Below, piece after piece: positions 35,752-39,361 of a DNA stretch of 64,000 nt. Source of the stretch: Gemmatimonadaceae bacterium (lineage in GTDB: Bacteria > Gemmatimonadota > Gemmatimonadetes > Gemmatimonadales > Gemmatimonadaceae); the NCBI GenBank assembly GCA_037721215.1, contig JBBJNV010000019.1, forward strand, positions 1 through 64,000, in the 5' to 3' direction. The stretch's first letter is position 1; each line of letters opens with the position of its first letter. The translations under genes and the position numbers were made by a program. The notes beneath the pieces are model-generated. The model ran no database searches. It saw only the letters and a program-made list of their open reading frames with translations, and was not told where the DNA came from.

Positions 35752-36870
35752 TTGACAGCCGCCAGCCCGGATCGCGCAACAGCAGCAGGAACGCGTCGGC
35801 TCGCCGCCCGGCACGCGCACCTGTTTGCTCCCGATTTCTATCGCGAGCTGGGCTCCGGCATACTCGTTTCATCCATCGGCATGGGCACATACCTCGGCGC
35901 ATGCGACGATGCGGAAGACGCACGCTACGTGAGTCTTCTCGCCCAGGGACTGAACCGCGGCTTGAACGTGCTCGATACGGGAATCAATTACAGATGCCAG
36001 CGATCCGAACGGGCGGTAGGACTTGCCATTCGCCAGGCAATCGCTTCATCAACTGTTGCCAGAGACGAAATACTCGTGTGCACCAAAGGAGGATTCGTTC
36101 CGCTCGACGGACAACCTCCCCGGTCGCGGGAGGACTACCGCTCCTATCTCGACCGCGAGTATTTCGAACGCAGTGTGATATCTCCGCGGGATCTGGTTGC
36201 CGGACACTGCCTCAAGCCGCGCTTCATAGCCGACCAGATAGAGCGTAGCCTGACCAACCTGGGAGTGAGCCGCATCGACATCTTCTATGTTCATAACCCG
36301 GAGCAGCAACTGGAGTCGCTCGGCAGGGCGGAATTCCTCAACGCCATGCGCGATTTATTCTGCGAGCTGGAAGCACAGGTCGAGAGGGGAACGATTGGCG
36401 CATATGGCTGTGCGACATGGCACGGCTTCAGACTTTTCGCCGCAAACCGTAATCATCTTTCACTCGTGGAACTGCTGGGGGTGGCCCGCGAAGCGGGCGG
36501 ACCCGATCATCACTTCAATGTGGTGCAGGTGCCCGTAAACCTGGCCATGACCGAGGCAGTTCGTTCTCCCACGCAGCAGCACGATGGCAAATACCACTCC
36601 CTCCTCGGACTCGCTCGTCAGACGGGAATCGACGTCTTCGCGAGCGCATCACTGATGCAGGCACAGCTTACCCAGGGACTCCCGCCGGAAGCAGGCGTTG
36701 CCTTCCCCTCCCTGGTGACCGATGCACAGCGGGCGATTGCCTTTGTACGTGCACTTCCCATTGCATCAGCACTCGTCGGAATGAAGACCGTTGCCCATCT
36801 GGACGAAAATCTCGTCGCCGGCTATCCCGCTTTGCCAATTGAAAGGGCGGCCAGAGCGCCAGTTTCATAG
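35752..36870 (+). CDS. aldo/keto reductase
   Basis: 372 residues. NAD(P)H-dependent reductase barrel: G-M-G-T-Y-L-G, L-N-V-L-D-T-G-I-N-Y (catalytic Asp and Tyr), S-E-R-A-V-G, V-C-T-K-G-G-F (catalytic Lys), then R-I-D-I-F-Y-V-H-N-P (catalytic His) and I-G-A-Y-G-C-A-T-W. The tetrad Asp-Tyr-Lys-His is complete. An insert of about 25 residues after the lysine strand is larger than usual. Start is TTG. Its 3' end overlaps the convergent selenoprotein candidate by 49 bp. Substrate unknown. Confidence 0.88.
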   Translation: MTAASPDRATAAGTRRLAARHAHLFAPDFYRELGSGILVSSIGMGTYLGACDDAEDARYVSLLAQGLNRGLNVLDTGINYRCQRSERAVGLAIRQAIASSTVARDEILVCTKGGFVPLDGQPPRSREDYRSYLDREYFERSVISPRDLVAGHCLKPRFIADQIERSLTNLGVSRIDIFYVHNPEQQLESLGRAEFLNAMRDLFCELEAQVERGTIGAYGCATWHGFRLFAANRNHLSLVELLGVAREAGGPDHHFNVVQVPVNLAMTEAVRSPTQQHDGKYHSLLGLARQTGIDVFASASLMQAQLTQGLPPEAGVAFPSLVTDAQRAIAFVRALPIASALVGMKTVAHLDENLVAGYPALPIERAARAPVS

Positions 36871-38276
36871 TCGATCGCCACGATTCGATGCGCGTTGGTG
36901 TCGGCTACATATGCATGGCTGCCGCCGCACGCTACGCCGCCCGGCTCGTGCAATCCCCCAATCCACGTTGCAGCTGATCTCGTCATCGGATCGAGCCATT
37001 TCACAGAATCGTTGTACGAGTCGGCTATGAGCATCCTGCCACTGGAGTGCAACGAGACTCCCTGCTGGTGCTGCATGAGCACCTCGTCACCAATGCCATC
37101 GGCATCGCCAAAATCGAAGAGGCCGGTTCCCACCAGCGTTCTTACATTGCCGTCAGCGGCGATGTCGGCGACGCGGATCGCACTGGACTCGGAATCCGCG
37201 AAACAGAGCTTGTCCCCGAATGCCGCAATGCCCATCGGCTGAGCGAGTAGCGCTTCGCGATTGTCACCATCGCGGATGTCTTCGCCGCCGCTTCCGCTGT
37301 GCACCCGGGATTTCTTCGAGCCGAGGTCGATGGCCCAGAGCTGATGGGCTCCGGCCATGGCGACGAAGAGGGTGTTTCCGGCAATCGCCAGATCCCATGG
37401 CGAAGACAGCGATCCGCCATCTCTGTCGACCCGGCTTCGGAACTGCCGGCCTGTCCCCGCCAATGTCGCGGTTTCTCCGGTGTCGAGATCGATCATTCTC
37501 ACCGCATGATTGGCAGCGTCAGCGACATAAAGGCTCTTGCCGGAAAACGCCAGCCCCTGGGGAGAATTGAACGACGGCGCGGCTCCGTCTGCGAACCCAG
37601 CTTCCATGCCACCGAATACACGATGCAAATCCATCCGCGTCCCATTTTCAGAAAGCGATCCGTACATCACACGATGGTTGCCGCTATCGGAAACCGCGAT
37701 GCGATCGCCATCGATTGCTACCTTCCCGGGATATCTCAGCATCCCTGGCGGCGCTTCCGGTTTATCAGTTTCGAAATGCAGCAATCGTGTGTCGAGTTCG
37801 CCTGAGGCCCTGGTTGTCTCGATCAGCCCGTCGATGAATGGCATGAGCATGTCAGCTGTGAATTCGCCTGCGTGAGATCCCACTACGCTCCCTCGCGGGT
37901 CGATGATGACGAGCGTCGGCCACGCGGATACCGCGTAACTCCGCCAGATTCGAAACTGCCTGTCATTCACGATTGGGTGCGTTACTCCAAGCCTCAGCGA
38001 GGCATCCCGGATTCGCCCCGAAACGCGCTCGGCGTGGTATTTCCCGCTATGAACTCCAATGACGACCAGCTCCGCCGGATACCGCAGCTCGAGCTCCCGC
38101 AACTGCGGGAGTACATGAATGCAGTTTATTCAGCCATACGTCCAGAAATCGAGCAACACCACCTTGCCGACGAGTTCGGTCAGTGTAAGAGCTCTGCCGC
38201 CAGTGTGGATCCAGTCCAGATTGTCGGGAAAAGCTGGAGATCTGACGGATGGAGTCGGAGTGAATTCTCTTGGCAT
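36822..38276 (-). CDS. thioredoxin-like/NHL-repeat protein, probable selenoprotein (in-frame UGA = Sec49)
   Basis: If the TGA at 38130-38132 is read as selenocysteine, one 484-residue protein results. Residues 1-140 are a thioredoxin-like domain: F-P-D-N-L-D-W-I-H, G-K-V-V-L-L-D-F-W-T-Y-G, then [TGA]-I-N-C-I-H-V-L-P and V-V-I-G-V-H-S-G-K-Y, the NHLRC2-type layout in which F-W-T-Y-G-C-I-N-C is the redox motif. The UGA falls exactly on the first cysteine (U49-I-N-C52), and a SECIS-like hairpin follows. About residues 170-480 are NHL propeller blades (S-P-Q-G-L-A-F, V-A-D-A-A-N-H). Without recoding the gene is two fragments. ATG 38276 is the only in-frame start clear of the divergent gene, but has no evident SD. 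Function: probable redox protein, partner unknown. Confidence 0.78.
38094..38111 (-). promoter_or_regulatory. bacterial SECIS-like hairpin
   Basis: On the mRNA strand, CTCCCGC-AGTT-GCGGGAG forms a perfect 7-bp stem with a 4-nt loop having G at its second position. It begins 18 nt after the UGA, putting the loop about 25 nt downstream, inside the window known for SelB-read bacterial SECIS elements. It lies within coding sequence, as such elements must. Confidence 0.7.
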
Positions 38277-38338: not shown

Positions 38339-39361
38339 ATGACTGCAAATTCGCATCACCGGGAGGGAGGAGGATTTCGCAATCCCTGGCCGGGTGCGCA
38401 GCCCCACGGATTGAGCGGAGTATTGAAATGGGCGATGTCACGTCGGCCGGCGGCAGCGCTCGCTTATCGCCAGCAAATGAGCCTCTCACCCGAACCACTC
38501 GCGCGTCACGCGCATACCGATGGGCAAACAGCACATGGTCCGGGCCCGGCGGCAAACGCGCTGGCCGTCACCTGGATTGGCCACAGCACATTCCTCATTC
38601 AATGCAATGGCCTCAACATCCTGACAGATCCGATCTGGTCGAGGCGAGCGTCGCCGGTTTCCTTCGCCGGCCCCGAGCGTCTCATGCCTCCCGGGGTTCC
38701 TTTCGATAGCCTTCCCGAGATACATGCAGGTTTCATCTCACACGACCACTACGACCATCTCGATGACGCTACAGTCCGTCGTCTGATCGATCGTTTCCCG
38801 CGAATGCAGTGGTTTGTGCCCCTCGGTGTCGTCGCATTTCTGCATCGGCTCGGCGCCGCGAACGTCGCCGAGCTCGACTGGTGGAACGAGCTGAGTATCG
38901 GGCCGATCTCTGCACAGTGTACACCTGCACAACATTTCTCGGGGCGATTCCCATGGGACAGGGATTCGACGCTCTGGTGTGGATGGGTAATTCGGGTTGG
39001 AGATTTCCGCGTTTTTTTCGCGGGTGATACCGCGCTTCACACGGAATTCCGCAGGATCGCCGAGCGCTACGGCCCGTTCGATGTCGCCATCCTCCCGATT
39101 GGTGCCTATGAACCGCGCTGGTTCATGCGCCCCGTTCACATGGACCCAGTGGAGAGCGTGACTGCGTACCAGCAGCTCACGGCAGATACCCCAGGCCACG
39201 CTTGTGTAATGATCGCATCACACTGGGGAACGTTCAGGCTGACTGATGAGCCACTCGATGAACCACCGGTCCTCGCGCGCGAGGCGTGGACAAATTCGGG
39301 TCTCAATGAGCAGATGCTGGCGATTCTCGCTCATGGTCAGTGTCGCGTTGTAAAGCGGTGA
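38339..39361 (+). CDS. MBL-fold metallohydrolase (NAPE-PLD/UlaG-like)
   Basis: 340 residues. Metal-binding motifs of the metallo-beta-lactamase fold: W-I-G-H-S-T-F-L-I, L-T-D-P-I-W-S-R-R-A-S-P, H-D-H-Y-D-H-L-D (HxHxDH), then P-A-Q-H-F-S-G-R, F-F-A-G-D-T-A-L-H and A-S-H-W-G-T-F. This set (including DPIWSxRxSP) is typical of the bacterial relatives of N-acyl-phosphatidylethanolamine phospholipase D. The start is ATG 38339 with AGGAAG just upstream. Divergent from the selenoprotein candidate by 62 bp. Substrate not determined. Confidence 0.9.
   Translation: MTANSHHREGGGFRNPWPGAQPHGLSGVLKWAMSRRPAAALAYRQQMSLSPEPLARHAHTDGQTAHGPGPAANALAVTWIGHSTFLIQCNGLNILTDPIWSRRASPVSFAGPERLMPPGVPFDSLPEIHAGFISHDHYDHLDDATVRRLIDRFPRMQWFVPLGVVAFLHRLGAANVAELDWWNELSIGPISAQCTPAQHFSGRFPWDRDSTLWCGWVIRVGDFRVFFAGDTALHTEFRRIAERYGPFDVAILPIGAYEPRWFMRPVHMDPVESVTAYQQLTADTPGHACVMIASHWGTFRLTDEPLDEPPVLAREAWTNSGLNEQMLAILAHGQCRVVKR

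Follow-up and report, generated by a model that had tools for sequence, protein, structure and literature searches.

Does the TGA codon that interrupts a thioredoxin-NHL (Trx-NHL) gene of a Gemmatimonadaceae bacterium mark a damaged gene, end translation, or encode selenocysteine (Sec)? The gene lies in a G+C-rich stretch of 64,000 nucleotides, hereafter the window, whose relevant features are collected in Table 1. This TGA, at residue 49, is the single internal stop of a 484-codon frame that runs on the minus strand from the ATG at 38276 to the stop at 36822. The surrounding sequence reads ...LLDFWTYG-U-INCIHVLPQL..., with the UGA at the first Cys position of C-x-x-C within the redox motif F-W-T-Y-G-U-I-N-C. 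Under the standard code, genes of this UGA form are split into two fragments, which bears on their annotation.

Table 1. Features of the Trx-NHL locus, in window coordinates
Feature	Position	Strand	Support
Proposed selenoprotein gene of 484 sense codons, counting the UGA as Sec	36822..38276	-	Start ATG 38276, stop TAG 36822-36824; gapless alignment to L100; purifying selection in frame
In-frame UGA at residue 49 (motif U-I-N-C), proposed to encode selenocysteine	38130..38132	-	Of 136 loci, 49 have TGA and 87 have TGC/TGT
Resolving cysteine codon, Cys52 of U-x-x-C	38121..38123	-	Invariant in 46-sequence alignment
Thioredoxin-like domain PF13905, residues 37-131	37884..38168	-	W-P-T at residues 119-121 matches cis-proline site
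NHL beta-propeller domain PF01436, residues 175-478	36843..37754	-	Pfam match, AlphaFold2 model, structure searches
Upper hairpin of bacterial SECIS, CUCCCGC-AGUU-GCGGGAG	38094..38111	-	Apical loop 38101-38104, 25 nt after UGA
Extended SECIS-like fold	38081..38125	-	-22.1 kcal/mol for 55-nt stretch, z -3.45; lower stem less conserved than upper

One reading frame spans the UGA

Both domains of the encoded protein were matched by Pfam, PF13905 with an E value of 4.5e-12 and PF01436 with one of 3.3e-23. The frame, start and length of the window gene are supported by its counterpart in a genus mate (L100), because the alignment of the two proteins starts at residue 1 and covers 480 residues without interruption, at 65% identity. 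When genus mates were compared, amino-acid change was well below synonymous change both before and after the UGA, as expected of purifying selection on one frame that continues past the codon; these selection ratios are only indicative, since synonymous sites are near saturation between the genus mates. The gene itself is carried by only 3 of the 18 genus mates searched (G001-G018); three that lack it, G011, G012 and G013, still possess selA.

A lone TGA between open stretches is weak evidence by itself in this window, where 57 TGAs lie between two long open stretches; it is recurrence that counts. Only 1 of these 57, the TGA at residue 49, lies within U-x-x-C where homologues have a redox cysteine.

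Homologues carry cysteine or UGA at the same codon

We next compared the codon at this position among 136 homologous loci, a main set assembled from a contig-wide homologue scan and targeted genome searches. It was TGA in 49 loci, TGC in 77 and TGT in 10, and no other codon was seen. No other stops were found inside the gene in these 136 loci, apart from its natural ends. Some loci are the same species taken from two collections, so that the 49 TGA loci represent about 46 distinct sequences. A further 27 loci from Actinomycetota contributed 22 TGC, 3 TGT and 2 TGA codons, one of the last being a second copy fetched of the L086 gene. UGA forms were found in Gemmatimonadota, in Chloroflexota (Thermomicrobiales and relatives, as well as a Dehalococcoidia metagenome-assembled genome [MAG]) and in Actinomycetota. 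The I-N-C motif and the cis-proline site W-P-T were invariant in an alignment of 46 sequences. On a tree built without the columns of the trait itself, at least six to eight changes between Sec and Cys were needed; the root of this tree is not fixed, and gains of Sec were not separated from losses.

The residue preceding the UGA differs among lineages. It is Cys in many Chloroflexota forms (several loci within L152-L177), giving C-U-I-N-C, like the human CCINC, while the Gemmatimonadota forms read G-U-I-N-C.

A conserved hairpin follows the UGA

The bacterial SECIS consensus is a hairpin immediately 3' of the UGA, with a small apical loop 16 to 37 nt away and a G in the first two loop positions. 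The hairpin of the window gene, with a stem of 7 bp, the loop AGUU and a G at the second loop position, meets this consensus on both loop distance and loop G. A hairpin at equal spacing was present in 41 of 45 distinct UGA loci, compared to 1 of 85 Cys loci (Fisher test, 5e-28). Among the exceptions, one stem mismatch was seen in the related loci L158, L163 and L164, a short stem in L149, and a different, weak hairpin in L192. For the window gene alone, approximately 1% of the sequences recoded synonymously for the same peptide matched its hairpin, and across loci synonymous recoding seldom attained the hairpins observed (median, 0.7%).

The stem also varied in a compensatory manner, with C-G, U-A and G-C pairs at one level and G-C, C-G and U-A pairs at another. 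Cells with compensation on both sides numbered 22, compared to 6.7 in shuffles, and no shuffle attained the covariation score; in controls slid along the alignment, pairing and covariation were far lower than at the named helix. Counts of this kind may be raised by kinship among sequences, but three phyla are represented among the loci. This helix was named from single folds and then counted across loci, and the structural claim rests on it because RNAalifold gave no consensus structure for the 60-nt (60-column) alignment. An Rfam scan around the Trx-NHL gene returned nothing relevant.

These comparisons bear out most of what a sequence-only reading of this DNA had proposed. The two open frames on either side of the TGA were said to make one NHLRC2-type protein, which agrees with the 484-codon frame, the L100 alignment and the matches to NHLRC2 and SOQ1 given below; the UGA was placed exactly at the first redox Cys, a codon for which homologues have Cys or UGA and nothing else; and the SECIS-like hairpin said to follow at the right distance is the one that recurs and covaries in UGA homologues. 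Unrelated stops in sister genomes, which by the same reading would have refuted it, did not appear, the homologues having no other internal stop.

Sec machinery accompanies the UGA forms

That reading had also called for a search of the genome for selA, selB, selC (tRNA-Sec, UCA) and selD, and would have fallen had selB or tRNA-Sec been missing. Every one of these genes is present: selA scored 527 bits, selB 341 bits (over the curated cut-off), selD 362 bits, and tRNA-Sec, with anticodon UCA, 70.5 bits. The selD gene has an in-frame TGA of its own, within the active site ...CAGUASKMGP..., and because selD is itself a UGA gene, the genome already requires Sec insertion for a known selenoprotein. 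This selD (L179; contig C32:30493-31440) lies directly upstream of tRNA-Sec.

In identical searches, at least one of selA, selB and tRNA-Sec was found in 47 of 47 UGA genomes tested, compared to 5 of 13 Cys genomes (Fisher test, P = 5e-7). Most of the UGA genomes are draft MAGs, some of which lacked single Sec components; selB was present in other Cys genomes too. As expected, the Sec form requires the Sec machinery, but having the machinery does not by itself entail the Sec form.

The single Cys locus with a SECIS hairpin is L107 (1-3792, genome G032), which has TGC at the UGA codon, an intact open reading frame (ORF) and the hairpin CUCCCGC-AGGU-GCGGGAG. None of selA, selB and tRNA-Sec was found in G032, a genome listed as 100% complete. 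The nearest relative of L107 on the tree, L138, has TGA and the same AGGU loop, and its genome has tRNA-Sec. The best reading of locus L107 is that Sec reverted to Cys and the Sec system was lost, the RNA signal having been left behind as a fossil SECIS.

Alternative explanations of the UGA

On the strength of comparative genomics, recoding of UGA 49 as Sec is nearly certain, although biochemically it is unproven; the comparative data show that selection keeps the UGA along with a SECIS and the Sec machinery. A pseudogene or sequencing error, by which a nonsense change or miscalled base made TGC or TGT into TGA and no whole protein is produced, would take a single base change in the case of TGC, and the abundance of TGAs between open stretches of the window leaves room for it. 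However, 49 homologous loci from three phyla share this TGA, with none at any other position in the gene, the codons downstream remain under purifying selection between genus mates, and the state of the codon tracks both Sec machinery and hairpin. An error in a single genome is refuted, as it could not recur at one codon in 47 genomes, and the explanation as a whole is hardly credible. Reading of the UGA as some other amino acid, through a genome-wide code change or a natural suppressor tRNA, would likewise keep both halves of the gene under selection, but it is hardly tenable: UGA is an ordinary stop elsewhere in the window, ending 21 of 38 long ORFs there, on which ground a genome-wide code change was rejected, and tRNA-Sec carries the UCA anticodon. 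A code change would also leave unexplained why the UGA occurs only at the redox Cys, and why the hairpin is present in UGA homologues and absent from Cys homologues.

Sec UGAs commonly terminate translation when selenium is scarce, and the codon might be a switch, stopping under selenium limitation, with a separate NHL protein of 426 amino acids made from a downstream TTG. An ORF with such a start does begin 10 codons past the UGA (38102). Its product, however, would start inside thioredoxin helix 1, without the first strand and the active site, and conservation of the SECIS shows selection for the full-length product; regulated termination of this kind is thus very improbable. Sec insertion at UGA 49 remains the reading adopted below.

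The protein belongs to the NHLRC2/SOQ1 family

The best sequence matches in the PDB were Arabidopsis SOQ1 (1.6e-88) and human NHLRC2 (6.8e-88). An AlphaFold2 model, with a pLDDT of 95.2 and a pTM of 0.93, superimposed on human NHLRC2 with a TM score of 0.91 covering both domains, and its Z scores lay in the range of 47 to 50 (49.7 to SOQ1 and 47.0 to NHLRC2). The window family shares with NHLRC2 and SOQ1 a thioredoxin-like domain and a six-bladed NHL propeller in one chain, together with I-N-C of the family's active-site motif C-(C)-I/V-N-C between the domains, position 49 being Cys or UGA. From the sequence, AlphaFold and PDB searches, the window protein belongs to the NHLRC2/SOQ1 family, with Sec at the position of human Cys-90.

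Human NHLRC2 (PDB 6GC1) likewise has a thioredoxin-like domain followed by a six-bladed NHL propeller, and its motif C89-C90-I-N-C93 lies in the cleft between the domains; it differs in having Cys-90 instead of Sec and an extra C-terminal beta domain (PMC6107167). Mammals depend on NHLRC2 for survival, and mutations in it lead to FINCA disease, which is fatal, while the biochemical activity of the protein is unknown (PMC6107167). The lumenal domains of SOQ1 (PDB 7DJJ/7DJK) share the thioredoxin-like and NHL architecture, but SOQ1 is membrane-anchored, resides in the thylakoid lumen, carries a HAD domain and has Cys rather than Sec; its redox activity is described as undetermined (PMC10173003). 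The closest thioredoxin domain outside NHLRC2/SOQ1 is the C-terminal domain of Mycobacterium tuberculosis DipZ (2HYX, 5CYY; E value, 3.5e-21), with the motif S-C-I-N-C (PMC6107167). DipZ differs from the window protein in being a membrane protein whose second domain is of another kind, in lacking an NHL propeller and in having Cys. The bacterial UxxC selenoproteins of thioredoxin fold, i.e., thioredoxin, Prx-like thiol:disulfide oxidoreductase, "Redoxin family protein" (PF08534) and TlpA-like (cd02966), also have Sec for the first Cys of CxxC and a SECIS just after the UGA, but the list gives NHL repeats or an NHLRC2 type for none of them (PMC13188914, Table 1).

A probably undescribed selenoprotein family

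No NHL, propeller or NHLRC2-type selenoprotein is named in the 2026 inventory of 119 prokaryotic selenoprotein families (PMC13188914), nor in a 2022 review (PMC9312934), the deep-Sep work (PMC12013277) or the GOS study (PMC2398784). A search of the full-text literature for NHLRC2 or NHL together with selenoprotein or selenocysteine yielded no relevant paper, with most subscription papers and preprints outside its scope, and NCBIfam holds no equivalog for the Trx-NHL protein. The sequence-only reading knew of no selenoprotein of this thioredoxin-NHL type. Against the 2026 inventory this holds, with the reservation that identity or overlap with the "Redoxin family protein" selenoprotein (PF08534, UxxC, HEU0032618.1) is not excluded, as there was no sequence comparison with that representative; the window protein itself scored 25.6 bits against PF08534, below the cut-off of 26.6.

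This, then, is a real selenoprotein, and its family is most likely undescribed. We hold it probable that the family is the Sec form of NHLRC2/SOQ1, distributed across Gemmatimonadota, Chloroflexota and Actinomycetota, with repeated exchange of Sec and Cys and at least one fossil SECIS that outlasted the loss of a whole Sec system.

Proposed recoding and redox function

In the proposed mechanism, SelD would supply selenium and SelA would load it, SelB would bring Sec-tRNA(Sec), with its UCA anticodon, to the hairpin with the AGUU loop 25 nt downstream, and the ribosome would read UGA 49 as Sec. The U-x-x-C active site is predicted to lie at the N-terminus of thioredoxin helix 1, facing the cleft with the propeller. 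By inference, the selenol of residue 49 would attack a disulfide or peroxide of the substrate and Cys52 would resolve the product, while the propeller may hold or position a partner in the interdomain cleft. Selenol/thiol-disulfide (or peroxide) chemistry on a propeller-held partner is the function we lean toward, with some reserve, the partner being unknown. We deduce this redox role from where Sec stands and from how UxxC selenoproteins are known to behave; it remains inferred because human NHLRC2 showed no activity when assayed for insulin reduction (PMC6107167).

Since Sec appears repeatedly at exactly one cysteine of the motif, with a conserved RNA signal, it provides independent evidence for redox chemistry at that site and for which cysteine attacks. 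The Sec form thus suggests that proteins of this class, whose function is unknown, carry out genuine redox chemistry. If this is true, it would be the second Cys that acts as the attacking redox residue in human CCINC; greater reactivity is expected of the bacterial Sec forms, which can be trapped or labeled, making the substrate question of the NHLRC2 class directly testable.

Neighboring genes

No neighbor common to the whole Trx-NHL family was found, neighbors being conserved only within lineages, and for this reason no partner can be named. In the window, an aldo/keto reductase gene (35752-36870, plus strand) is convergent with the selenoprotein gene and overlaps its 3' end by 49 bp, and a gene for a metallo-beta-lactamase-fold hydrolase (38339-39361, plus strand) is divergent from it. 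Clusters of these two types recur beside the Trx-NHL gene in 9 to 10 loci including the window, mostly from the window's own family. In seven loci, mainly of Chloroflexota (L044, L057, L069, L155, L156, L168 and L171), the vicinity of the Trx-NHL gene includes a gene for a protein that, judged by eye from sequence, resembles the heme A synthase CtaA.
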